DNA of 64,000 bases from Nautilus pompilius (taxonomy: Eukaryota; Mollusca; Cephalopoda; Nautilida; Nautilidae). The notes beneath the pieces were generated by a model, which worked only from the letters and a program-made list of their open reading frames with translations, was not told the origin of the DNA and did not search any database. Position numbers and translations under genes: made by a program. Below are positions 7,122 to 61,935 of this stretch, one piece after another; positions within the stretch are counted from its first letter, which is position 1, and each line of letters begins with the position of its first letter. The stretch is taken from positions 1,514,501 to 1,578,500 of the forward strand of contig JACATO010000968.1 of the NCBI GenBank assembly GCA_018389105.1. Reading direction: 5' to 3'.

Positions 7122-10100
7122 ATGGCGAGAGTATTAATAGACGCATCGCTTGAGAGAAATAGGGTTCAGGTTGCCAAAGCTTTAGGTAGGCCATTCACTG
7201 TTTAGTCTTGGAGGGTATTTAATTTAATTGACTTTGCTTGGAGCCTAAGTATCAGTAGTAGTAGTTCCAGCCCGCCTCGTTTTCGCGGCTCTGGTACGGT
7301 GCCAGTAGTACAGCAGCCGATGATGACTGGCTAATTAACTAACCAGACCTGTTCATGCTCCCTAACACTAACCCTAACCCTGTCCATGCTCCCTAACCCT
7401 AACCCTAACCCTGTCCATGCTCCCTAACACTAACCCTAACCCTAACTAACCAGACCTGTTCATGCTCCCTAACACTAACCCTAACCCTGTCCATGCTCCC
7501 TAACACTAACTAACCAGACCTGTTCATGCTCCCTAACCCTAACTAACCAGACCTGTTCATGCTCCCTAACACTAACCCTAACTAGCCAGACCTGTTCATG
7601 CTCCCTAACCCTAACTAACCAGACCCGTTCATGCTCCCTAACCCTAACTAACCAGACCTGTTCATGCTCCCTAACCCTAACTAACCAGACCTGTTCATGC
7701 TCCCTAACACTAACCCTAACCCTAACTAACCAGACCTGTTCATGCTCCCTAACACTAACCCTAATCCTAACTAACCAGACCTGTTCGTGCTCACTAACCC
7801 TAACCCTAACTAGCCAGACCCGTTCATGCTCCCTAACCCTAACCCTAACTAACCAGACCCGTTCATGCTCCCTAACCCTAACCCTAACTAACCAGACCTG
7901 TTCATGCTCCCTAACACTAACCCTAACTAGCCAGACCTGTTCATGCTCCCTAACCCTAACTAACCAGACCCGTTCATGCTCCCTAACCCTAACCCTAACC
8001 CTAACTAACCAGACCTGTTCATGCTCCCTAACACTAACCCTAACCCTAACTAACCAGACCTGTCCATGCTCCCTAACACTAACCCTAACCCTAACTAACC
8101 AGACCTGCCCATGCTCCCTAACACTAACCCTAACTAACCAGACCTGCCCATGCTCCCTAACACTAACCCTAACTAACCAGACCTGTCCATGCTCCCTAAC
8201 ACTAACCCTAATCCTAACTAGCCAGACCCGTTCATGCTCCCTAACCCTAACCCTAACCCTATTTTTTAAAACTTTCCTCTTTTTTTTTTTTACTAATAAT
8301 TTTTAGCAAGTTTCTCAACCCAACCAACTGTCTCTATAGGCGATGCAAAACACTTCCTAAACATTATTCACAGGCACCATATCTCCAGATATTCCTAATA
8401 AGACAACGGCCTTTCCTGAGTTCTATTCCGATTTGTCCTTGTTATGATTTTTTCTGGAGCCAATTAAGCAGGATTGTAATCAAGTACTTGTTCACAGAGC
8501 TCTTAACCAATCGTTGATTTTTCTGATTTGTCAGAAAATCACTTCAAAAGAAAAAAAAATCTGTCTTTACAGTTTTAAGTAGACTTCTGCTATAGTCAAA
8601 TAACTTATACTAAGTTATGATTTTGAATTTTAAACGAAGTAAATAAACATTAGTATTTACTATTTGCATCATAAAAATTTGTCTTCAAAACACTGACAAA
8701 AAAGCAGCTTATAACAGTTATTTTGTTTTTGAGGCTCATAGGATACAAGAACAAGGCACATAATAAATATTATTTACTTCTTTTAAAATATATTTCCACA
8801 CCTACTGAGGCTTTTCACATTATTAGTAGTGATACAACAGTAATGAACCTATTTTTCTGAAATCCTTCACAGTCACCATTATAAGGGACTCTTTTGGCAT
8901 GCAGCTTCTCTTTGTAGTGTTTGAGTGACTTGAGCTGGTTTCAGACCTGTGGCCTGCTACCAGATTATCTGCTTTTGTATAATCTGAAATAACTCTTTAA
9001 ATTGTCAATTCAAAGAGGTGCAGGTTATTTTTAAACCTGGATAATATTTCCATCTTTTTAACTCATCTGTAAAATGTATTTTAAAATAAATTAATGGTGT
9101 TCCATTGAAATTTCACTACAGAATCTTCAGTTTTAACTTACTGGTTCCCTTCCACCTTATAATTACTGCACTATTAATAATGTATCAACAAATTTAATTT
9201 ATAAAATCTGCAGTTTTATTTGCTAAATAGAAGGTTACTTTGAGGATCTGTCTGCAGCTCTAGTTTTGAGTCCTCAATATTTCCTTTGAGCAGTTATCCT
9301 GGCTGATGATACTCAGCTTGCAGGTGTAGTTATCAAGTCGTGTTTTATTAGTCTGGATTGCTAAATAAATCAGCAAGTTTTTATGATATCATGCATTGGA
9401 GGAAGAGTCTGTTAAATATTTATAGAAAAAATTAATAGGTTAGTGTCGGATAATATTTATTCATTAGACAGTTGTAGTGATATTGTGAGCTCTATTTTGA
9501 AATCATAGAGATGGCAAAATATTTAAAAATAGCAAAATAAATTTTTTTAAAAGCCTTAAAATAGTGGACTGGTACATCTGATAAATCTAGTAAAAGAGAG
9601 TAACATTTTTAGAACTGGAGAAATTTGTTAATCCAACTTTTACATTAAGCTACATTTATTTGTAGAAGAATCTCAACTTTGTGTATTCATCCATTGTTAC
9701 CTTGAATTTTTGTGTCTCTTTTCAGCTTCTGTAGCACAGGGTTTTCTTGGAGCATGTAGAAGGTGAGAGATTTATTTTTATTGGAATAAAGTATTAATTT
9801 TTAGTATTAGATGATTTAAAACTTTGCTATCATGCTTTTTTTTTTTTTGAATGTCTGTGTATACTTTATACACAATTAAGACTGTTGAAAAACTTGGACA
9901 GACAAGACCGTCCATGACCTTTCAGCATTTGTGCTAAACATCAAGACTGTTGTGATACCTAGGATCATCTGCTTATAAAGGAAGTGGACTAATGTCAAGA
10001 ATAATGGTGATGGCAGTGTTCTTTGATTATTGTCCACAATTGTAGACATGATTGATGAAGTTGCCTAGTACCATGTTTACCATTAACAAAAATTGCCTTT

Positions 10101-13100: not shown

Positions 13101-16100
13101 CAAAAAAGGTACTGATGCTATGATGCTTATATATTTTGTTTTGTTTTTCTTTTTCTTTTTTTTTTTCAGTGTAAGATGTGTTGTTGATGAAGACCGTACA
13201 TTATTTACAAAGGATATTGGAGTTCTTCTACAAAACATAGATGTTGAGGTAGGCTGCACAATGTTATGTCATTCTGTTTTGCTGGAAGCCTGAACATGTC
13301 ATGATGTTAATATAAATTGCCATTAAATTCAGCTCTTAGCAGTTTCTCAGTGCATTTTAACAGAGCAGAAATGAGTTTGCTGCTCTCTATTCAGTTATCA
13401 GATGGTGTGTTCTTTTTACAAGCTGAGGCAGCCAGTGAAAAAAAATATTTAAGGGCATTTTTTTCATTGAAGCTATAATGAGTTTACTTTTGTTGGCTGG
13501 TTATGGTCAAGCAAATAACAGTATCGAACTTTGTTAACATTGTTGCCACGAGATAATTTTTTCTGTATTTCTAAAATTTGAATTCTGCATATGGTGCAAC
13601 TAGGAGGCAGGAAAGCATCATGGCTTATGCCAGACCCTAGGCAAGAGAGGTAGCAGTAACACAGCTGATTCATACAAGCACTATTAATTGCCAAATTTTC
13701 ATTTTTCTATATACCATTGCACACTTCCTGATTTCTAAGAAAATTAAATAAATTGTGTCCTTACCAGGAAAATTGTATTCATATTTTTTCAATGGGCAGG
13801 GTAAATCTATTAATGCCCAATATATAGACTTCCAATGGTTTATCAACAAATATTATAACAGAAGAAAATGAATTCTAGGAAATGAGTGAAACTAATTAAT
13901 CTGTGTGGATTCCTTATGGTTCACAGCAGCTACATAGAGTTTTGAATATCTTAAAACTTTAGAAGATAACAGCTTTTAAAAACAAATCTTAAACATAAAA
14001 AAATAGAACAGAAAACTCTTCTTAACTTCCAGATGTAAATATTGTGACTGTTGATAAATAAAATTCTGGAATTTTCGTATCATACAACACATGTATAGTT
14101 TCAGTAGATCAATGTCTTATTTATCATTCAAGCATCCAATAGGGCAGCTGATCTGTTCGGTTTGTGAGTCACATCATAAGAAGTATGGATGCAGCACAAA
14201 ATCTCTGCTTGCTATGATTGGATGGTGGGTGGAAGAGGCAGGATTTCTTCTGAATCAGGTAAGTAGTCATGAACTGTTGAATGATAAATGACGAATAAAT
14301 AATACTGTTACATTGATCAACATGTCCATGCTAAGCTATGAATATTTGAGTTTAAGAGAAAAGACAGTCACAAGGAAGGATGTTCAGTACTTGGGTATTT
14401 TTAATATATATTTTAATCTTCTGTTGTTTTTGCTTAAGTTTAAACTTCATTCTCCCTATTTTTTTAAAAGTTAATATTAAATACATAATTTCTGGTAGCC
14501 TATTAATAATTCTATTAATAAAACATTTTCTGTCATCAGTTTATGATAAGTTCATTCTTTATGATTACTTGTCCTGCCACATAAATTGTGGAGAAATTGA
14601 AAGTATTCAGTATGACTGATGTTGGTTTGATTTGGCAACTGTATGATTGACGTTCAAATGTTCCTCAGATTCTTTCTTTTAGTGATGAGGAATCAGTCCA
14701 AGTAATGACTTTATGTGAGAGAGGGAAAACCTCAAGAATTGTAGATCACATATCTAAAGGTAGTTTAGCATATAACATCTGCCATGTAGTTATTTTATTA
14801 AACAATAGAAATTATAATTCATTTCACTTTTTTTTTTGTGTGTGCTTTCATAGTCTTTTGACACAGCTGGAATAAGGTTTAGTGCTGGTTGATGTTTTAC
14901 AAACTATAGCTCAGGAAAAGATCTGCAGAAAGTAGGTTTATTAGTTTGTTCAGTAACTAAGAGTAAGCTGATAGCCATACTTAACACTCACTTTATAAAT
15001 AATAGACAACCTATAACTTTCTGTCCTCATCTTTAAAAAAATAATTCATGAAGAAATGAGTTTGCTTTTGATAGCAGGTTATGTTTAAATATCAACATTG
15101 AGTTTTGTGCTAATAATATAACCATCACTGAAAAATATTTTTTATTGTATTTGTCAAATTTGAATTAAACATCAAGAAAATTATTTATGAGCAGGATTTA
15201 TTAAAGCTGATTGATGCTATCACTGTTGACTACATCTGCTAGCTGGATGCCATCTCATGTACCTGAAATGCTTTAGATTGGAAATAATCCAGGTATATAA
15301 TGATTAGAAAAACAAAAAAATAAACTCAATTGATAATTTTGTTGTTTATATTGCAGGGTATTCCTGTTGCAGACATTATTCATTTGATGCACACCAGCCT
15401 TGACAAATGTATTGACCAACTCCACAAAATAATAATTGACACAACTGAATATGTTAATAATGTATTTTTCACAGAGGCTGCTGATACCTGTGATAAATGT
15501 TCTGTCCAGTCTTATCAGCAGAATAAGCAGGTGCTATGTTCAAGGGCATCTCTGCACAGTTTTCATGAAATCAATTTATTGGTGGGTGTTAATCCTAACC
15601 AGAAGGTGGTTGTTAATGACAGTGTAACATCTCATTCTTCAGTTGATACAGAGACAGAAACTGATGACACATGTTGGGGCATTCGGGAAAAAAAAACTAG
15701 CAGTTGTGAAGTGTTGTTAGAGATGGCTGACACTGAACAAAAGTTGAATGACACGAGTTTGTATCTTGATGCAAAAGACAGCAAAATTTGTGTGAAGAAA
15801 GAACTTTGGCAAAATCCTGAGTATAACGACAGAACTTTAAATTCACGAGTTGACAATTCTGATGAAGAGTTTGATGCTTGTTTTAGTTATTTTGAAGAAG
15901 ATAGAAGAAAATTACCAGAGAGGTTTGATCTTCATTCACGTCAAGATCAAGGTTGTTTTGGAACATTTATGGGCAACACAGACATGTGTAAAGTTTTCCA
16001 GGATTGCATATCAAATACAAACTCAGAAAGTGAATTTATTAAAACATTGTCAGCTAAACTGGAAAATACTTGTTTAGTAACTCAAGAATTCCAAACATGT

Positions 16101-19100
16101 TCAGATACTTCTGCCAAAAACATAAATGCTGGTTACTTAGGATCATCTCTAAATAAGAATTCTTGTGACTCTGATTTTGCTTCATTAAAACTTTTGGAAT
16201 TGAAACCTGTATGTACTGACTTCAGCAAAGGTGAGTCTCATTCTTCCTATTGTGAAGACTCAGTAGCAGAGGGTTTGCAAACTGTTGTTGAGATTTCCCA
16301 AGTTAAGGGAACAGTAAGTGGCTGTGAGATGCTTCCAAACTCTGACTGTTTTGCACAAGATGATGACTGCTCACATAAGAGCAGAGGTAAAGAGTCAGTC
16401 AGCTTGCCAAACAGATTCTCTGCTGAGAGTCTAGAACTGTATCTAAATTCAAAGTTGACAGATTTCCAAGCAAAACATTCTGTGAAAGCTTTGACATTTA
16501 GCAGGCATTTCAAAACACTGGACACGGACAGCAGTTTGGAAGCAGACGTTTGGAATAGGCAAGCATCAAAAGAAGCAGATAACTGTGCAAAGAGAGAAGA
16601 TTGTTCTAGTTCAAATGAAGCACTTGATGGTAATGATGAGAAAGAGGAAATGAATATTGTTTTAAACTCTCAAGAGTGTACTAATGTATTGTCTTTAAAT
16701 TATTCAGAACATACTCAGGGAAGTTTCACCTGTGTGGGTATTCATAGTTGTGCTAAACCTTCAGAACCCTGTACACTTAGTAGAGATATATGTTATGGCA
16801 AGAATTTCTTAAAACGTGAGATTAATGATCAGCACCTGCCATGTGAAGACATTTCTACATTAGATTTACCAGGGAGTATGACAAGACTAGGTTTTTCCAA
16901 TGTTCCATGGCAGAGAGATGATGCTGAGAAAGAAGAAATGTATTTTTTTCAATATGGGGAGATTCCTCTTGAATATTTACATACAGATGAACAAATACAA
17001 GGAAATGAAGAAAGAACTTATAAAAGTTTGTCAGCTCTGAAATACAGTAGGGTTTGTAGTTTGGTTCGTGGTCTTTGTCGCAACTTGGATGAGACAGCAG
17101 ATTTTTTGATGAAAGCCTTGTGGGAACAGAACCAAAAAGGAAGATTACATAACAGGTTCCTTAGGTAAAAAGAAAGAAAATTTCTTACTATTAATTAAAA
17201 GGTGTGTAATAATGATTCATGTTCATTTATATTTAATCATTAGAAGTGACCAGGAATCTATCATGGCCTATACAAGGTTTGTTCTGTTTATCTTCAGGTG
17301 TAGTATTATCAGAAGTATTACCAATAATCAGAAAGAATTGATTGGCTATTTTATTATCTGCATGGATTCTGAAGCTAATGTCTGGTGAGCAGTTTTCTTC
17401 TGTTAACTGATCATCACATTCTATCTGAGCCCTGCTGAGAGGAAAGCGGCAGAAACCTCAGGAAAAACTTGAATTTCTCTTCGAAAAATCTCCACCCATT
17501 ACATTTTTTTTCTTGTGCAGAAAATCAGAAAGAAAGGGAAAAAATGTTAATTGGTTTATTTTTTCACTGCTGCATAAAATTACGAACTGATTTGAACAGT
17601 GAAGTTAAGAAATTCGGTGTTAATTTTGCCATGCAGTTTTTCCAAAAAGCATCTGTTGCCAGCCAACCAGCCAAAAGGAGGTTCGATTGATCCCCACACA
17701 CAGAATTTTGGTTAGCTCCCCTGTCTCACTTGGTAGAATTTATAAATTCGGTTCTCTTCTCTTCTCTCGTGGACTCTTGGATAATCCGTGGTGACTACCT
17801 GCCTCCTTGTAACTACCAAAAATAATGCAATTTTCCCCCCTAGATTAGAACTTTTTTTTCTCTTTCCTCCTCCAGACATGCTCAGTAAAGCAAATCGTAC
17901 ATTATTCTAAAACAAAAAAAAAATATTTTACATTTGTTTATGCATAGATTTGTTTCTTTGCACTTGGATTTTGCAAGAAAATAATTTTTTTGTGATTTTA
18001 ATTATCTGAATTCTGTAGAGAATCTTGGTTTTTGGTTTTTGTTGCACAATTACCTAGTTTTTATCTGTTTAGAAGGTACTATGAAGTGCTGTATTTAATT
18101 TAATGCATACTGCATCATTTATAGATTTGATGTTACCAGACTCCACTGTTGCTGCATCATCGGCCCTGGAGCAGAGCGCTCACACCTGGTCCAGGGCGTA
18201 GTCTTACCTGTATCTCCAAGACAGATGGCTTTGGTTTGTGGTGCAATGGAAAGAGAGCACAACATTTTGGTATGGCAGATGTTGCTTAACTCCTTTCAGA
18301 TCCTAGAACTTGAAATCTGTGTTGGCTGCCCTCACTTACCTTGGCTATTTAAATCACTTTTGAACTCTGCATCAGACAATGCTGGGATATATTTATTACT
18401 ATATTGGTAATCATTGATGTTTCCTTGACTTAAGTAAATCAAAGAAATCAGATCAGATAATGTTAACTTCTTTGTAAAAAATTTATATTGGTTTTATTGT
18501 TCTTAAAATTGAGGTTTAATTGTTATTAATTTAGAATTAATTTTAGGTTATTGTTATTATTTTGCATATTGTCAATCTTATCCCATTTATATCGATGTTT
18601 TACAGCTTGTCAATGGCTGTGTAACAGAACAGTTTCGACATGTAGGATATAAGTCACCAGTGGTTTCACAGAGCATATACTCTGAACAGGAATACAAAGA
18701 CAAAGGAAATAGCAAATCATGCTGGCACATAACAGTGTTTGACATCCTGATTAAGGTATAAATAGATTTACTTATCACTCTTTAAGAGAAATAGTACAAT
18801 GCCAATTGATGCAGATACTTTTATTAGAAGAAAAAAAAAACGATTTTTTTTTGTTTTGTTATTAAAAATTTGACACCTATCACAGCACAAAACATTTCTT
18901 TCGGTAAAAGTTATTTTTCTTATTTTGAAATGGACAATTATGGAATTTAGGACAAATTGAAAACTATAACCAAAACTAAATTTTAATCCAGCCTAATGTT
19001 AATTTATTTTGACTGCTGGTGTATTGTTTTCAGACTGAAGCAGTGTTCTGCAGTGGTTGTTTTACCAAGTTCTTCACTTTTAATTTGATGTGGGGCTTTT

Positions 19101-37700: not shown

Positions 37701-40700
37701 AAAGCAGCTCATTGTTCTAGCTAAAGGATGAAAACACACACCCTTCACATGTCTGAGAGGGCACATGTATATGTAATCAGTCCAACATTGGTAAGACATC
37801 ACACAATTTCCAACTCTGCACACAAGAACATGGAGATCTCTCAAAACAGTCAGGACCTGCTCCTTATCTTTTCCCACATCCTGGAAACTAACTTAAATAA
37901 TTATAACCCATCCTTGGAAAATTAGAAGAACAATAGAAGCTTTTACCATGATCTCATTGATTGAAAACATTCATGTGAGTTGCTTAATGCAAGAAATCAG
38001 TGCAATACAGTAGTCTTCCCTCTTTCATGGGGTCTAGCAGAAGGCTTTAAGGAGCAAATATGAGAATGGTTGGCTCTCTGTTTCTGACTGGTCTAACTCG
38101 TATTTATGACTGAATCACACAACAGACTGAACTAGGGCGACTCCAGCTGGTGTTTGGCAGAAGTTGGCTTCTGCTACATAATTCAGTCTTGTTCTTCAGA
38201 CCAGTACATAGATAAAACTGCATGCATTTGCATTACATTACACTAATAAAGATGTAAAAAATCTGTCACCCTAACACTTTGGGAATTATCTATCTATTTT
38301 AAAGAATTACTTGTAGCTTACACAATTATACGGTAATAGAAATGACTTTGTTGTGGTTGTGTGGGTGAAAGAGTGAAATAATCTGTTTTAGTCAATATTG
38401 CAGTTTTATTTTAGTAAATGCTGATTTCTACAGTGGAAGTCAAAGATCTCTCTCTCTCTCTCTCAGAAATTTCTTCCCACCCCAGAAAAATGACATTTGT
38501 TTATTGCTATTTTCCATCATCTCACAGAAAACATCCATTTATTTATTTCTCAGTTAATAACGAGGATTTACACACTTATGATATCCAAGGGTTTCTATAC
38601 CCTTTTTTGAATTTGAGAAAAGAGCGTAAGGTGGCACTGCATGATTTATGTCAAACATAGAAAAGGTGTGACGAGGATTGGAGAAGAATCTGTGCCTTAC
38701 CTGAAAATATACAAAGCAAAACTGTGTGTCAGGAAATTCTCTAAGGCACCGTTTTGCTTTGTATAAGCCAAATTTAAAACAAAGTGCACAATGTTTTGCA
38801 ACAAAAAGAAAATGAAGGGAGTTACACATTTGCTTCCAAAAATTCCTTGACATGATGGATGTGGAAGTGTCACCTTTAACTTTGGCGGTAATATTTTAAT
38901 CTGATTTGAAAAAAAAAACAACTTTTTTTCTTTAACTTGGAAGCGTTTCGGGTTTTTTAAAATATGAAGCATGTCGAACCTTATAAGTAGTAGGCAGGGA
39001 TCTTTGGGAATCAAATTCAAATTTATTTTTTTCACCAAAAAGTTACAACTTAACAAATGTTTCAAAGAGAAATTCTTACTCAGATCCGATTTCATGGCTT
39101 TGTGTGATAGTGTATGGCAATAAAAACATCTTCACTGGAAATTGTTCTCATAGTAGAATACCACAATTTTAAAAAAAAATGTAATTGTGTATTTAATTAT
39201 ATTTGATTTGAAAGTTCTCATTGATCTCTTTTGTAAAAAATGTGGACTTACGTAGTTTGTTGCAAGTGATGGGATCTTAATTGTTAATGTTCAGTCTACA
39301 GGAGCCTATAGCAATTCAGCAACTCATACTTCAGTATTAAAGTATAGAAGGTTTACTATACATAAACTCTGCAGTATCCTTTGAGTTTTATGTTGTTTTA
39401 AGGTTTAGATATTTTTGGCTATTTATACCCTAACATGTGCTGTACAACTTTTGTGAATTTTTTACTAATCCTCTTGTAAGTGGAACTCAACTGTATTCAC
39501 AAGAATTTCAGTCAGTGGCTTTTCCTTTTGGTTGTTTAAAATGGTTACAATGTTTTCTGCACTGACAGTGGTTTTGAACATGCGATATGATCATTCAATT
39601 CCTGGTGAAAAACCAGTGTTAAGTGCTGAAAGTCAAATGGCTCTGACTTGGTGAAATTTGTATGGTGGCTATTTTGTTTACAGTAATTCCTGCACTTCAT
39701 TGTGCTGCTAAATTTATCTTGGAAAAGCCAGGCAACTTTTGACAATCATCTATACTAGAAGACTTCATTATGAGAAATGTGATGCATTATACATTTCCCC
39801 AGTAGTACATCTAAAACCTGAATAAGAAACATTAAAAGATTTGGTTTACTGACCTTTATTAACTTGGTAAATTGGATCTTGTCTCCAGCTGGGCTTCCAA
39901 AGAAGGCAGGGTACTCCCAGTCTATGTCAATACCATTGAAGTTATGTTTGAGGGCAAATTCTATGGAATTATTGGTGAAGGTTGCCATGTTTGCTGGTGA
40001 TGAGACAGTCACATGGAACTCTGGGATTACTGCTCCGCCACCAACCGATATCAACGTTCGTAGTTTGGGGTTTTTCAGTTTCAATGCATTTATTCTGGCA
40101 TAGCTGAGAAAAAAAATTTATGCCCTATACACATGAAACCACTGAGAGGGAAATAATTGAATTATTGAAGAAGTGTCAGCAGTTTTGTGCAAAATGTCAA
40201 ACTTTATTACCAGAGTTGGCTTTGTTTTTGCTTGTTTTTTTTCTTCAAAACGTTAAAGGAAGATCAGTAATTTTGTGTGGAATGTTAAACACTGCTGCCA
40301 AATATGGTTTGTTTGTGTTTTTTTCTAGTTGCAAAAATTGATGCTTTTTTAATTAATATGTTGTTTTTTAATACAAACAGTATTAATGTTTCTTTTAACC
40401 TGAGATCTGACACATTGCCGTATACATTTCTGAAAACTGAAAAGAATGGTGACAAATTTTCGTGCAGGTTTCACTAAAACTAAATTTGCAACATTCATAA
40501 CGAGAGAAAAGAGGTTGGGGAAGGATAAATTGCTGAGATGCACGATTCATTTTGAAAAACATCTGAGGAAAATAGCATTAAGATGAGAAGCTGTTGGATT
40601 ACTTCATGATGACCAGGGTTAGAGATATTGATTCGGTAGTAGCTGAGTAGCTTTAAAGCAGTGCTTTTCAACCTTATTTGATGCACAGAACCTTTTGAAA

Positions 40701-51149: not shown

Positions 51150-51690
51150 TCAAATCTACCAGAATTTTTCATTTGTTCCCCCGGTTCACCTTCGGAATGG
51201 ATTCAGAATCGCAGCCGAGAAAATTAGTATTTCTATCAAACTGCTCTTCTGGTTCCTTTATCAGCTCTGTTTTCCCCCATCGCCATGTATCCAATGAGCA
51301 TTTGAACAATGAGACTGCGACGAGGGGCGTGTTCGTCTAACTTCACCTTCCGTACAAATCTGAACGGAGAATCTTCTAGAAGTTTTTCATAAGCTTGAAC
51401 AATGTACATTTGACCGACTGTCTTCATGTAGTCTTCTATCGACATCTTTTTTTGCAAGATGACGGTTTCCGTAGAAACATCATCGATATTTTTGGAAATT
51501 TGAACCCTCTTATCATTCACGAACTTCCTGACACGTGATACACTCTTCTTCGTCGTCAAGTAATCTATCAGATAGACAACAGCTATAACAGCTGATGCGA
51601 GCAAAACAGCTTAGAAAACGTGATTGACTTCCACATGTATACACACACACACACACACACACTAAGTTACGGTTTCCTTTTCTTTGTTTA
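51150..51690 (-). pseudogene. Truncated duplicate of the OTULIN-like gene
   Basis: This stretch matches the 5' end of the OTULIN-like gene (about 58,760-59,265), including the CA repeat next to the start codon. It covers the membrane anchor and the first ~130 residues of domain 1. From about 51,355 to 51,600 the match is almost perfect. It falls clearly over 51,236-51,355 and is weak toward 51,150. The start ATG is changed (GTG at that codon), a stop replaces a Leu codon in the membrane segment, and the frame is lost after about residue 115. It is a non-functional copy in the same orientation, 7.6 kb from the full gene. Confidence 0.85.
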
Positions 51691-54726: not shown

Positions 54727-57700
54727 TTAATTGCATTTTCTTGGTTCCAAATTACTTTCCAAAATGGTTTTCAGCATGGACCAGGGTTTAAATATTTCAG
54801 AATTATCGTTCATGAAAATCAGACCCCGGCATAAAGTATCCTTAATTATACTAATTTCAGGAAGCATGTTGTCATTGTAATGTTCAAGATAAAAGTGTTC
54901 TTCGTTGAAGCCTATTTGAAATTTGCTTACTTTTAATCGTAAAGCCATTGCCAGCAATTCCAAATACGGATTATTCAGAGGGTTTTGCAGGAAAACGTAC
55001 GCTGTGTGGTACTGGATTTCTACGAGCACGGACAAGCCTATGATTAAGATCCACTCGATTACAGGGTTGTTGTTTAGATACTGCTCCACCCAGCATTCTC
55101 TTTCCCAGTTCGAGACAAACGAGTTGGCGTCGTCACAGATAGTCCATAATATGTCCAAAATTTTTGTTATCGCCCACAGTTCGTCGTCAATGTTTATAAT
55201 CAGAAGAGATTGGAAAGCACAGCTGCTGAAATCGATGCCTTTAGCCAACAATTTCGCCACTGTCGTTATCTGATGGCTTTTGCTTTTCCATCGCCTTTTG
55301 ATATGGATGTTATCAATGAGCATCTGTATGATGCTGGTGCGATAATGGTATTTACTATCTGACCTCACCTCTCGCAGAAATTTAAACGAAGTATCCTTTT
55401 GAAATTTGGTGTACGCCTGAAGAACGACGGTCGACTTGATATTTTTCACGTGATCTTCGATTAAGAGTCTTGGGGACAGACACAGGGTCTGATTGCAAAC
55501 CCTGTCTGAAACGCGAATGGCTTTGTCTTTTATAAACGCTTTGACGAGTTCTTCACTCTTCAGCGGATGATGCGTTTCCCGTACGGCAACGGGCAGGCGA
55601 GTAGGCGGCACGTCACAGACAGATACATTTTCGCTCATGAAGATGAGATGAACAGTTTTCTTGCCACTTCGAAGTATATTAACCGTTGGAAGATCACTCT
55701 TGTTGTTGTAAACTATCTTGCGAAACACAGGTTGGTGACCATCTAAAGCGAACATGCGTATTTTCACTCGGCACGCTTTTGCTATGATTTTCATCTCGAC
55801 ATCACGTTTGGTTTTTCCAATGGGAAAGGACCCTCGTTCGTACAAATAGAGACAAAAAATAGCGGATGTTGCCGACACTAAGATATACAGCAGCACTGGA
55901 TTGGCATTTATATACTGTACAATCCAGTTCTCTCTTTCCGAGTTCGACCTAAACGTTCTGGCGTCGTCGAATACAGCCCACAAGATGCCGAGCATATTTA
56001 TAATTGCCCATAATTTATTCTTCTCTGCTAATCTCAGAAAGTAGTCGAACTTGCAACTTCCAAACCGAGATCCTTTGAGATACCAGTACGTCATAGCTGT
56101 TATTAGTTTGCTTTTACTTTTCCATTGATTTTCCATGTGGATATTTTTTATAAGCATCTGAACGATGACGCTGCCTATAAAGGGCTTATTCACTTGTAAT
56201 GTTCGCAGAAATTTAAAAGAAGTCGTTTCCAAAAATGACTCATACGCTTCCATCTCTTTGCTGTCTGTGATTCCTTTCATATAATCCGCTATCAGCATTC
56301 TTGCGTCCAAGAAAACCGATTGGTTGGAAACAGTATCTAAAACATCGACTGCGTTATCACTGATGAATGCTCTAAAGAAACTCTCACTTTTCATTGTTTC
56401 CGGTTTTTCCCATATCATTTCCGACTGATAATCCGAATGAGTAAAAACAGAGTCATTACTCTCACTTTTGTCCGACTGAACATCACTTTCGGGTTTTCTC
56501 GTGGGATAGAAATACGGCTGAGAAATTAACCCAGTGTCGTCATTTTGATGAGTTCTCGCCTCAGCGGCTTTAAAGACAGCGCTTTCACTGTTTGTTCTCA
56601 CCAAATTATTGATTTTTCTTGTGCTAAATGAATATTGCCGATCAACACTAGCCTCATCAGTTTCAGGTGTGTCCACCTCAGCAGCTTTAACGAAAGCGCT
56701 GTCACCTTTGTTACCACTGGTCGAATCAGTTTTGATTTTTCTTGTGCTAAATGAATATTGCCAATCAACACTAGCCCCATCAGTTTCAGGTGTGTCCACC
56801 CAAGCAGATGCAACGCCAGTGCTCTCACTTTTAGCACTGGTCAAATCAGTTTTGAGTTTTCTTGTGCTAAATGAATATTGCCAATCAACACTAGCCCCAT
56901 CAGTTTCAGGTGTGTCCACCCAAGCAGATGCAACGCCAGTGCTCTCACTTTTAGCACTGGTCAAATCAGTTTTGAGTTTTCTTGTGCTAAATGAATATTG
57001 CCAATCAACACTATCCCCATCAGTTTCAGGTGTGTCCACCTCAGCAGCTTTAACGAAAGCGCTGTCTCTGACCAAATAATTCTCGATTTTATTTGTGCTC
57101 AATGGATATTGCCGATCAATACTATCGTCATCAGTTTCAGGTGTGTCCACCTCAGCAGCTTTAACGAAAGCGCTGTCTCTGACCAAATAATTCTCGATTT
57201 TATTTGTGCTCAATGGATATTGCCGATCAATACTATCGTCATCAGTTTCAGGTGTGTCCACCTCAGCAGCTTTAACGAAAGCGCTGTCTCTGACCAAATA
57301 ATTCTCGATTTTATTTGTGCTCAATGGATATTGCCGATCAATACTATCGTCATCAGTTTCAGGTGTGTCCACCTCAGCAGCTTTAACGAAAGCGCTGTCT
57401 CTGACCAAATAATTCTCGATTTTATTTGTGCTCAATGGATATTGCCGATCATACTATCGTCATCAGTTTCAGGTGTGTCCACCTCAGCAGCTTAACGAAA
57501 GCGCTGTCTCTGACCAAATAATTCTCGATTTTATTTGTGCTCAATGGATATTGCCGATCAATACTATCGTCATCAGTTTCAGGTGTGTCCACCTCAGCAG
57601 CTTTAACGAAAGCGCTGTCTCTGACCAAATAATTCTCGATTTTATTTGTGCTCAATGGATATTGCCGATCAATACTATCGTCATCAGTTTCAGATGTGTC

Positions 57701-59233
57701 CACCTCAGCAGCTTTAACAACAGCGATGTCACCTTTGTTACCACTGGTCAAATCAGTTTTGATTTTTCTTGTGCTAAATGAATATTGCCAATCAACACTA
57801 GCCCCATCAGTTTCAGGTGTGTCCACCCCAGCAGGTGCAACACCAGTGCTCTCACTTTTAGCACTGGTCAAATCAGTTTTGATTTTTCTTGTGCTAAATG
57901 AATATTGCCAATCAACACTAGCCCCATCAGTTTCAGGTGTGTACCTTTTAGCATGACGCTCGAGTCCTTTTGGTCGATTGAAATATGGCTGAACATCTGT
58001 GCGACGATCGGTGCTCCTTTTTCTCATCCCATCAACAACAACCTGACTCTCATCAGTCTTCCTTTCACCTTTTCCACGATCCCCTTCGTTTTTAAACGTA
58101 CTCGAAGAACGCGGCTGACGCTGCACCCTTTCATTTGTGCAATCAACAATTTTACCGTCTGTCTTTAAATCGGACACCTGGGCTTTGTCCCCCTTACGTT
58201 TTCTTTTACCCGAAGCAGCTTGGTTTTTTCCAGCGCTATGCAGATACGACCGGGTGATTTTAAGGGGCGAAAACTTAAATGCTTTCAACGCATCGACGAG
58301 CTCTGTCCCATCTTTCGAAATGCCGGCTGGTAAAGGGTTGAACAACCTGGAGTCGTCATCCAGGATAATTGTATCGAATTTCAAATCGAAACTGTCTGAA
58401 ACCAAGGTGATTTCGGGAAAATCTGACCGGTTGTTGACGACCTTTTCCAGTCTGAACACGGGACGAACTTCATCCAAAACACACAGATTTATTTTTATTC
58501 CGAGGCCCCTTGCTAGCATTTCCAGGTATTTCCTGGTCGATCTTCTGTACTTCTTACTCGGACGGAATTCTGGGAAACGAGACTTGGAGAGCTCAACAGC
58601 TGCGAGAATGAACGCGCTATTTAAGAAAATCAAGTCTACCACGGGGCTCGCATTTACAAAATGTTCAATCCAATTTTCTCTTTTTTCGTTTGAATTAAAC
58701 GTGTTGGCGTCTTCGAAAATAGTCCACAGAATTTCTAACACCTGTTTCATGGCCCATAGTTTATTTTTACGGTTTACTTTTAGAAAAGATTCAAAATCGC
58801 AGCCGTGAAATTTAGTGTTTCTATCAAACTGCTTTTCTAGTTCCTTTATCAGCTCTGTCTTTTCCCATCGCCTATTGATGCCAATGTTCCCAATGAGCAT
58901 TTGAACAATGAGGCTGCGAATAGGGGTGTGTTCGTCTAACTTCACCTTCCGTACAAATCTGAACGGAGAATCTTCTAGAAGTTTTTCATAAGCTTGAACA
59001 ATGTACATTTGACCGACTGTCTTCATGTAGTCTTCTATCGACATCTTTTTTTGCAAGATGACGGTTTCCGTAGAAACATCATCGATATTTTTGGAAATTT
59101 GAACCCTCTTATCATTCACGAACTTCCTGACACGTGATACACTCTTCTTCGTCGTCAAGTAATCTATTAGATAGACAACAGCTATAACAGCTGATGCGAG
59201 CAAAAGAGCTAAGAAAATGTGATTGATTTCCAT
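54727..59233 (-). CDS. Membrane-anchored protein with three OTULIN/FAM105-like pseudo-deubiquitinase domains
   Basis: An intronless minus-strand gene starts at ATG 59233 (MEINHIF, just inside a CA repeat) and stops at 54727. It would be about 1,502 residues, but two 1-nt deletions near 57,448 and 57,491, within one repeat unit, split it into frames of 594 and 902 residues. Residues 5-25 form a membrane segment (FLALLLASAVIAVVYLIDYL). Domain 1 (about 35-300) follows the OTULIN fold: SIEDYMK, FVRKVKLDEHTPIRSLIVQ, KYLEMLARGLGIKINL, FPEITLVSD. OTULIN IRRVRGDNYCALRATLFQ aligns with the second block: Asp and Arg are kept, but Cys is Thr103. A basic linker (KRKRKGDK) and about twelve 37-41 residue repeats follow, then domain 2 (about 56,395-55,610) and domain 3 (about 55,565-54,760). 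Cys is Phe in domain 2 and Tyr in domain 3, and the catalytic His is not apparent in domain 1 or 3. OTULIN cleaves linear ubiquitin, and its relative FAM105A is an inactive membrane-bound homologue. By analogy this is a scaffold or ubiquitin binder (inference). Confidence 0.65.
56600..57960 (-). repeat. Coding satellite inside the OTULIN-like gene, about 12 units of 111-129 bp
   Basis: About twelve tandem units each begin with the codons for DTPETD. Two subtypes alternate in blocks. Type A (111 bp; DDDSIDRQYPLSTNKIENYL, then VRDSAFVKAAEV) fills about 57,060-57,710 with virtually identical copies. Type B (about 120 bp; GASVDWQYSFSTRK, then KTDLTSAKSESTGV) flanks it on both sides. A degenerate unit (RTHQNDDTGL) precedes domain 2. 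Unit lengths are multiples of three except the unit near 57,440-57,500, which lacks two bases. The repeat is hydrophilic, rich in Asp, Ser and Thr, and probably a flexible stalk. Confidence 0.95.
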
Positions 59234-59957: not shown

Positions 59958-60539
59958 TCACGTGGCACATTTGACGGGCAGGAAGCAAAATTTCGTTAAT
60001 TTAGGCTGCGGAGTGATGCAGTCGGCAGTTTGGTCCCTGGGAGAACACACGTCCGCCCCGTCGGCCCCTTTGTCCGTCAAATAGTTCACAACGTGGAGGT
60101 GATTCGCTTCCGACGCGTAGTAGATTGGAGTTCGGCCGGTCGAGTCTTGGGCGCTGACGTGCGCTTCCCTCGAGAGAAGTAATTCCACGATCTTCAGATC
60201 TCCTCTGTGCGCCGCCAGGTGGAGCAGCGTGCACCTGCCGGGCAGCCCCTTCGGGTGGCCCATCTCCGTGTTTACGTCCATCTTGGCGCCCAGCAAGACC
60301 TTCAAGAGTTTGCGCGACCCGCGTAGCGCGCATGCGTGGATCGGTGTCCAACCGTCGATGTCCCGCGTGAACACTTTGCAGGCGAGTTCGCGGTTCTGCT
60401 TGATAAGTTGCCGAGCCTGCCGGATCAGCTTCGCTTCGTTGCTCCTCATCAGTCCCATGACGGTCTTGGCCAGGTCTGTCACCTTGCTGTCGTCCAGGTG
60501 CTGGATGACTTGCTTGCATAGGTCTCCCTCTAATGTCAT
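59958..60539 (-). CDS. Short ankyrin-repeat protein
   Basis: One coding exon (ATG 60539, stop at 59958) gives 193 residues. An AG acceptor (GTTTTCAG) lies 9 nt before the ATG, so at least one untranslated exon lies to the right. Residues 1-60 are helical and charged (KVTDLAKTVMGLMRSNEAKL). Three ankyrin repeats follow at about 63-95 (DGWTPIHACALRGSRKLLKV), 103-135 (CTLLHLAAHRGDLKIVELLL) and 137-165 (GRTPIYYASEANHLHVVNYL), then a short tail with several Cys (PQPKLTKFCFLPVKC). The coding sequence is distinctly GC-rich compared with its surroundings. I do not recognise the orthologue. Such small ankyrin proteins usually mediate protein binding. A Tc1 transposon sits in the presumed 5' intron. 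Confidence 0.8.
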   Translation of the reverse strand: MTLEGDLCKQVIQHLDDSKVTDLAKTVMGLMRSNEAKLIRQARQLIKQNRELACKVFTRDIDGWTPIHACALRGSRKLLKVLLGAKMDVNTEMGHPKGLPGRCTLLHLAAHRGDLKIVELLLSREAHVSAQDSTGRTPIYYASEANHLHVVNYLTDKGADGADVCSPRDQTADCITPQPKLTKFCFLPVKCAT

Positions 60540-60612
60540 GATTGGAGGCTGAAAACGACAAAGCAAAAAGAGTCGTGAAGATTGTTTTGTTCACCGTAAG
60601 TATATATATATA

Positions 60613-61935
60613 CAGGTGCATCTAAAAAAATCAGAATATCGTGGAAGAGTTCGATATTTTTTGTCAGTTATTTCAGAAAGTGAAAATTGTATATATTCTA
60701 GACTCGTTACATGTAAACTAAAACGTTTCAAGCATTTTTTAATTTTAATTTTGATAATTACGGCCTATAGCTGAAAATATTAGAATATTCCATTTCGAGT
60801 TTGAGTAAATCACTATTTATGCAGTGTAAATACCATGAATCTCTCAGTCTGGTTCAGTACACACAACCACAATCATGGGGAAGACTGCTGACTTGACAGT
60901 TGTCCAGAAGACACTCATTGACACCCTCCACAAGGAGGGTAAGCCACAGAAGGTCATTGCTGAAAGGGCTGGCTGTTCGCAGAGTGCTGTATCAAAGCAT
61001 ATTCATGGAAAGTTGACTGGAAGGGAAAAGTGTGGTAGGAAAAGGTGCACAAGCCAGAAGGATGACCGCAGCCGATTGTCAAGCAAAGCCGATTCAAGAA
61101 CTTGGGGGAGCTTCACGAGGAGTGGACTGAAGCTGAAGTCAGTGCATCAAGAGCCACCACGCACAGACCTGTCCAGGAAATGGGCTACAAGTGTCGCATT
61201 CCTAGTGTCAAGCCACTCCTGAACCAGAGACAACGTCAGAAGCGTCTTACCTGGGCTAAGGAGAAAAAGAACTGGACCGTTGCTCAGTGGTCCAAAGTCC
61301 TCTTTTCAGATGAAAGTAATTTTGCATTTAATTTGGAAATCAAGGTCCCACAGTCTGGAGGAAGAGTGGAGAGGCACAGAATCAAGTTGCTTGAAGTCCA
61401 GTGTGAAGTTTCCACAGTCAGTGATTATTTGGGGTGCCATGTCATCTGCTGGTGTTGGTCCACTGTGTTTTATCAAGTCCAAAGTCAACGCAGCCATCTC
61501 CCAGGAGATTTTAGAGCACTTCATGCTTCCGTCTGCTGACGAGCTTTATTGAGATGCTGATTTCCTTTTCCAGCAGTACTTGGCACCTGCCCACAGTGCC
61601 AAAACTACTAGTAACTGGTTTGCTGACCATGGTATTACCGTGCTTGATTGGCCAGCCAACTCGCGAGAGACACCAGATACAGACGAGCCGAAGGCCGCTA
61701 TCAAAGCGACCTGGGCTTCCATAACACCCCAGCAGTGCCACGGGCTGATCGCCTCCATGCCACGCCACATTGATGCAGTGATTCATGCAAAAGGAGCCCC
61801 GACCAAGTATTGAGTGTATAAATGATCGACATTTCTATATTATAAATAAGCCGTATGAGAGTTTCATTGTGTGAATTAAATTACAGGAAAAAATGGACTC
61901 TTCCACGATATTCTAATTTTTTTTAGATGCACCTG
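60613..61935 (+). mobile_element. Nearly full-length fish-type Tc1 transposon
   Basis: A 1,323-bp element has inverted ends reading CAGGTGCATCTAAAAAAA on both sides, continuing to GAATATCGTGGAAGAGT, and is flanked by TA within a TA microsatellite. The plus-strand transposase starts at 60875 (MGKTADLTVVQKTLIDTLHK) and ends IDAVIHAKGAPTKY at 61813. It includes the paired-like HTH (AERAGCSQSAVSKHIHGKLT) and ALL-type Tc1 blocks such as WTVAQWSKVLFSDES and GAMSSAGVGPLCFIKSKV. It closely matches a Tc1 transposase common in teleost genomes. It is inactive: the frame changes at least twice, a stop interrupts the middle near 61,550, and a deletion after VLDWPANS removes the PDLNPIENLW block with the third catalytic acid. 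Confidence 0.93.

Follow-up and report, generated by a model that had tools for sequence, protein, structure and literature searches.

A three-domain OTULIN-like gene with a repeat stalk in Nautilus pompilius and its family of relatives with altered catalytic centres

The locus

We analysed a stretch of 64,000 nucleotides from Nautilus pompilius (GenBank assembly GCA_018389105.1, contig JACATO010000968.1, positions 1,514,501 to 1,578,500), referred to below as the window. Its minus strand carries a gene with three OTULIN-like domains, labelled D1, D2 and D3, which have lost the catalytic Cys and His of OTULIN (Table 1). It has many relatives in the same genome.

A sequence-only reading had described this locus as a single membrane-anchored chain of three OTULIN-type domains with a repeat stalk, and most of that description stood. 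The three domains resembled one another far beyond chance, with 34-37% pairwise identity and expectation values (E) of about 1e-50. The N-terminal segment of membrane type (HIFLALLLASAVIAVVYLI) was recovered, and similar segments were recognised by eye in the 7 relatives inspected. The stalk lay between D1 and D2 as described; tandem-repeat rows covered 56604-57942 and 12 units were counted. Among the loci read, only the window gene had a long stalk in this place.

The start and stop codons agreed with those proposed, but a single chain was not confirmed, as D1 and D2-D3 were in different frames. The first frame begins with the ATG at 59233 and reaches a stop ending at 57449 after 594 codons. 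It carries the hydrophobic segment, D1, the basic linker and the first repeat units. The second frame is open from 57450 to the stop ending at 54727 and carries the remaining repeat units, D2 and D3. The two frames were left unjoined across the stalk.

Table 1. Features of the OTULIN-like gene and its downstream fragment, in window coordinates.
Feature	Position	Strand	Basis or remark
Whole gene span	54727..59233	minus	ATG at 59233, stop ending 54727; no intron evident; two reading frames
N-terminal membrane-type segment, residues 5-23, Lys soon after	59165..59221	minus	mean Kyte-Doolittle hydropathy 2.62 over 19 residues
D1, OTULIN-like; LDEHT where OTULIN has GDNYC	58316..59152	minus	Pfam Peptidase_C101, domain alignment
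Linker from D1 to the repeats, rich in basic residues	57944..58315	minus	read off translation
Repeat stalk, 12 units, mostly 37-41 residues, TPETDxxSxDxQYxxST..	56560..57943	minus	end of last unit assumed
Frame break within the fourth repeat unit (one base fewer, in a short run)	~57492	minus	comparison with sister units
Frame break within the fifth repeat unit (one base fewer, in a short run)	~57450	minus	comparison with sister units
D2; loop VNK-PF, Asn for Asp, no Cys	55609..56421	minus	domain alignment; no Pfam C101 match alone
D3; loop SDSKY, no Cys	54730..55584	minus	domain alignment; Pfam C101 15.9 bits (cut-off 27)
Pseudogene fragment, truncated duplicate of gene start	51172..51634	minus	in-frame stop

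Kinship with OTULIN

The Pfam family Peptidase_C101 (PF16218, cut-off 27 bits) matched D1 at 27.3 bits when the domain was searched alone and at 25.5 bits within the longer frame. Profile comparisons were more telling. A profile of D1-D3, run against 177,635 PDB sequences, had one match at E<=1, namely FAM105A (E 0.0069; E 0.1 for the best stretch alone). A profile built from 12 family sequences had 10 matches at E<=10, all of them OTULIN or FAM105A, with E from 3e-14 to 1.5e-10. The D1-D3 profile also picked up the genome's own OTULIN at 56.4 bits and had no match on 405 reversed frames. Aligned with hhalign to three OTULIN-type sequences, the window domains scored a probability of 95.9% (E 5e-9).

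Single-domain relatives elsewhere in the genome link D1 to OTULIN (contigs and loci carry our own C and L numbers). The genome search with D1 picked out two such frames on contig C1094, at E 1e-40 and 2e-40. The latter, P0001, matched human OTULIN at E 6e-7 over residues 88-308. Peptidase_C101 exceeded its cut-off in all four single-domain frames on C1094 (two; 35.4 bits in the one other than P0001), C598 (71.6) and C96 (47.8), and in two two-domain frames (29.8 and 33.2). It stayed below the cut-off in L022 (25.5) and L006 (17.7), and L024 and the C647 frame had no match. The OTULIN-family identity proposed for the domains was thus upheld by profile comparison, and on these sequence comparisons the kinship of D1-D3 with OTULIN is firm.

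A collection of 5.8 billion proteins contained no match to D1 (E<=1), to a single-domain relative (E<=1) or to the 12-sequence alignment (E<=0.1). Since the single-domain query does match human OTULIN at the E value given above, the collection is probably poor in such animal proteins, and absence from it is therefore uninformative on novelty. A pattern scan of viral contigs for a viral origin yielded 104 pattern matches, none of which was confirmed as a relative. Searches of open-licence literature brought up no title or abstract opening that dealt with multi-domain or membrane-anchored invertebrate OTULIN relatives.

Catalytic centre

The 138 domain matches in the genome were reduced to 39 distinct, near-complete domains by dropping fragments and identical copies. 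The catalytic Cys was kept in only three of these, both C1094 copies and C598. The His at human position 339 was found in none of the 35 domains with a residue there, at an end where the alignment is gappy. The Asp at human position 126 (35/39 domains) and the Arg at 132 (37/39) were largely retained.

Thus, of the Cys129-His339-Asn341 triad, D1-D3 have neither Cys nor His. The sequence-only reading had given Thr, Phe and Tyr in place of the Cys, with the loop Asp kept in each domain. This was correct for D1 (Asp, Thr) and D3 (Asp, Tyr). In D2 the loop residue is Asn, and the catalytic position holds Pro or Phe depending on the alignment, which has a one-residue gap beside it.

The C1094 copies, which kept the Cys, have Asp in place of the His. 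In C96 the Cys is replaced by Ser and, because this frame sits on a separate branch, the Cys has probably been lost more than once. With the catalytic residues and most of the S1-arm stretch (below) gone, cleavage of ubiquitin by D1-D3 is very unlikely.

The family and its descent

Searching 728 Mb in 2558 contigs with D1 gave 105 matches, which were sorted by their spacing into 39 groups spread over 15 contigs; those on C1829 and C880 each contain more than one gene. Where contigs C1067 and C2304 were compared, they shared 99.4-99.95% identity across 3.9-9.4 kb, so that some copies are probably alleles and the true number of family members is lower.

Open two-domain frames of 586-590 residues were found at L027, L029, L032, L033 and L034 (L027 and L033 being an allelic pair), and others were broken. 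Three-domain arrangements occurred on C50, C880 and C1829; none of those read was open throughout. Three domains per gene are therefore not unique to the window, and the triplication turned out to belong to a large family of two- and three-domain members. In the three-domain relatives an acidic linker joins domains 2 and 3; 32 residues of it are tandemly duplicated in L022 (1293-3398) and single in L024 (1932-4151) and L021 (6115-7635).

The PF16218 search also recovered an ordinary OTULIN at C656:1428277-1431554, with GDNYC and RHYN motifs and an intact Cys-His-Asn triad. Five exons and four introns were read, with splice sites placed by eye. The family domains were read as single open frames with no introns seen, and the four single-domain frames had none over the domain. 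This absence of introns, set against the introns of the C656 gene, suggests that the family arose by retroposition.

A tree was rooted on human OTULIN, human FAM105A and the C656 OTULIN. C598 and C96 branched first, followed by the two C1094 copies in turn and then by the 35 Cys-less rows, with starred support at each step. At the base of these 35 rows C647 formed a polytomy on a very long branch. Among them, the window D1 clustered with the first domains of other genes (support 83/81) and D2 with D3 (84/74). Both groupings were weak, and the inner branching order is unsure as many branches are long. A single clade of D1-D3 was not rejected by the approximately unbiased (AU) test (p-AU 0.296), which neither supports nor rules out their common origin within the window gene.

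FAM105A as the source of the family, or a grouping of the two, was rejected (p-AU 0.0005), a result to be taken with caution given the long branches. The parallel with FAM105A drawn in the sequence-only reading therefore holds for the dead centre and the N-terminal segment and does not extend to descent.

Frame breaks and selection

The main rival explanation treats this copy as a pseudogene in decay within an amplified family, with domains and stalk as relics. We consider this unlikely. Nine of the 11 repeat units with measured lengths are divisible by three (111, 120 and 123 bases), which speaks against decay; the twelfth was set at 111 bases by script and is not a measured length. Units 4 and 5 measure 110 bases, one too few in each case, so that the frame shifts within the stalk. 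Past both breaks the frame stays open, leaving about 900 codons (stalk, D2 and D3) in addition to the 594 of D1 and the first part of the stalk.

Gaps are frequent between near-identical contigs of this assembly. Seven pairwise comparisons, some of them overlapping, gave 31 gap openings against 62 mismatches. Twenty of the gaps were of a single base, and 16 of these adjoined the same base. Assembly error is thus a plausible cause of the frame breaks. They may be such errors, or they may be a recent, real break in this copy.

The rival draws support from the surroundings of the gene and from the family. The fragment at 51172-51634, 3 kb downstream of the gene, matches D1 with about 90% identity across 123 residues and then with 76% across 37 residues in another frame. 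It includes the gene's GT-rich leader, and its in-frame stop falls in the membrane segment. Stops or frame shifts are also present in many relatives, the three-domain ones among them. Against this stand the five open two-domain frames, even with two of them counted as alleles.

Ratios of nonsynonymous to synonymous divergence (dN/dS) were calculated by the method of Nei and Gojobori (NG86). Only open frames were compared, which is a source of bias. Over whole frames, pairwise comparison of five recent two-domain copies (10 pairs) gave ratios of 0.81-1.32; one of these pairs, L013/L015, was 99.9% identical over the locus and is probably allelic. Ratios of the recent copies to the more distant L003 were 0.61-0.69, and two three-domain comparisons gave 0.86 and 0.53. 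In the first domain of the recent copies dS was 0-0.05, with ratios of 0.69-1.66 where defined, and in the second domain dS was 0.006-0.19, with ratios of 0.50-1.52. When D1, D2 and D3 were compared with each other, dS was well above dN (ratios 0.15-0.29, with synonymous sites saturated).

The values near 1 among recent copies count for decay and the low ratios among D1-D3 against it. The pattern among the copies could reflect diversifying selection, a relaxation of constraint or gene conversion in the first domain, and we prefer none of these.

Ubiquitin binding

According to a second rival, which was also raised in the sequence-only reading, the gene encodes a ubiquitin-chain receptor whose three dead OTULIN domains bind linear ubiquitin at a membrane. 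Catalytically dead OTULIN C129A is reported to bind Met1-diubiquitin tightly (PMC3690481, excerpted text), and this, like the retention of Asp126 and Arg132 in most family domains, is in its favour. So is a 2015 review, an excerpt of which states that FAM105A may well bind ubiquitin (PMC4765238).

The idea is weakened by the state of the S1 arm. In OTULIN the distal ubiquitin is gripped by a helical arm (residues 254-264), and either L259E or E314R makes binding weaker, as described in the excerpt of PMC3690481. We aligned the binding site from human OTULIN residue 116 onwards, downstream of the S1' site (W96 and T100-Q101-K102). The stretch equivalent to human 231-288 has 58 residues in human OTULIN, human FAM105A and the C656 OTULIN. 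It has 51, 53 and 56 in three of the single-domain frames, and 39 and 44 in the second C1094 copy and C647. In the other 34 domains it is shortened to 22-31 residues (29 in D1, 24 in D2 and 23 in D3). L259 is kept in none of the 39 domains, and E314 in none of the 38 with a residue there; position 314 is Asp in FAM105A and the C656 OTULIN. The features of the S1 site (arm 254-264, L259 and E314) are thus missing from D1-D3, which makes it unlikely, as far as sequence can tell, that they hold ubiquitin in the manner of OTULIN. Moreover, a later paper reports no binding of FAM105A, which has retained the arm, to either ubiquitin or LUBAC (linear ubiquitin chain assembly complex), in the excerpted part of PMC7862380. 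Taken together, we regard a ubiquitin receptor as quite unlikely.

The weakest rival is a fast-diversifying family in host-parasite conflict, with the dead domains serving as decoys or sensors of parasite proteins that hit OTULIN or linear-ubiquitin signalling. It agrees with the large, clustered, multi-copy family and with ratios near 1. It also agrees with recent two-domain copies that hardly vary in the first domain and differ from less than 2 to about 14 times more at synonymous sites in the second. We hold it to be highly improbable, as dN/dS is not clearly above 1 (one three-domain comparison falls to 0.53), gene conversion may explain why the first domain diverged so little, and the comparison covers open frames alone.

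Interpretation

We think it probable, though well short of certain, that the window gene encodes a membrane-tethered scaffold in which the remaining OTU surface binds partners and the stalk serves as a spacer. The descent, the loss of Cys and His, the shortening of the arm, the repeats and the size of the family are established from sequence; from these we infer the anchoring, the orientation and the scaffold role.

A copy of OTULIN, probably a retrocopy, would have founded the family in this lineage, and an early single-domain copy would already have carried the N-terminal membrane anchor. The catalytic His and Cys would then have been lost, followed by most of the S1-arm stretch, in an order of losses that is itself conjectural. 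Repetition of the domain within the chain would have produced two- and three-domain proteins, and the window gene would have gained its expanded repeat stalk between D1 and D2. The anchor is predicted to put the domains on the cytosolic face, because Lys residues directly follow the membrane segment (positive-inside rule). There the stalk would act as the spacer and the repeated domains would bind partners by what is left of their surface.

Several observations weigh against a scaffold of this kind. The two frame breaks leave a single continuous chain unproven. D2 alone had no Peptidase_C101 match, and a fold prediction for D1, with D1-D3 as the alignment, reached a mean predicted local distance difference test (pLDDT) score of only 40.4 and was not used. 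Each domain has one further hydrophobic stretch, with a mean hydropathy of 1.88 in D1, 2.06 in D2 and 1.63 in D3, so that extra membrane contacts or another topology are possible. The whole-frame dN/dS of the recent copies and the 2015 statement on FAM105A count on the same side.

A bolder proposal is that of an independently reinvented membrane pseudo-deubiquitinase. Here a retrocopied OTULIN would have given up both catalysis and its hold on ubiquitin and become a modular, repeat-stalked and rapidly diversifying family of membrane receptors or decoys. Its members may act in innate immunity, and the window gene would be the longest of those read. We put this forward tentatively and rather doubt it.

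The family represents a second, apparently separate origin of a dead OTULIN, with the intermediates present in one genome. The series leads from an ordinary OTULIN through single-domain, Cys-bearing copies to dead multi-domain copies without most of the arm. With it one can look for the step at which ubiquitin binding ceased and for what came in its place, and see if dead OTULINs have membrane anchoring as a common theme.

Other features of the window and genome

Directly upstream of the gene lies an ankyrin-repeat open frame on the minus strand (59958-60621; Pfam Ank, 73.9 bits). The plus strand carries a transposase remnant (60875-61539) with a helix-turn-helix start (HTH_38, under cut-off), which we take to be Tc1/mariner-like. 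An open frame of 612 codons on the plus strand (15330-17168) matched no Pfam family above cut-off and is perhaps one long exon. A minus-strand frame at 39755-40084 contains NGIDIDWEYP, presumably the active-site motif of family 18 chitinases. At 7348-8261, within a long contig, a tandem array has units of 31-45 bases that contain CCCTAA-type, telomere-like motifs. No Rfam families or tRNAs were found within the window.

Elsewhere in the genome, COX1 produced 148 match rows, some overlapping and many with TGA or other stops in the standard code, which points to many nuclear mitochondrial copies. In one COX1-like stretch on a nuclear contig (L044), AGA stands for Ser, ATA for Met and AAA for Lys, that is, the invertebrate mitochondrial code; we assume these places to be conserved in COX1. 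The residues of this stretch have a spiralian look, resembling those of molluscs or annelids.

Comparison with known systems

Within the genome, the comparison is with the single-domain frames (two on C1094, C598 and C96). As in the family at large, they are read as single open frames, and the two on C1094 match D1. The two C1094 frames and C598, whose starts were read, also have an N-terminal hydrophobic segment, judged by eye. They differ from the window gene in having one domain, in keeping the Cys in three of the four cases and in an arm stretch of 39-56 residues.

With OTULIN itself (FAM105B, PF16218) the family shares the domain, as recognised by sequence profile, and in most members the loop Asp and the downstream Arg. 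Unlike OTULIN, most family domains have no catalytic Cys or His and have lost most of the S1-arm stretch. The family further differs in its N-terminal membrane-type segment, in having several domains per chain, in the repeat stalk of the window gene and in the lack of visible introns. Whereas OTULIN has a PIM motif that binds HOIP, the short N-terminus of the window gene is the site of the hydrophobic segment.

FAM105A, also known as OTULINL, is an inactive OTULIN paralogue with a predicted N-terminal membrane motif, reported to lie at membranes resembling the endoplasmic reticulum; the excerpted text lists the cellular role of the vertebrate protein as an open question (PMC7862380). Judged from sequence, it shares with the family the combination of a dead centre and an N-terminal membrane segment, and it was the family's best PDB match. 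It differs in having a single domain, in keeping the His and the S1 arm, in the replacement of Cys by Asp and, by the AU test above, in its separate origin. The likeness of the Nautilus family to FAM105A looks convergent.

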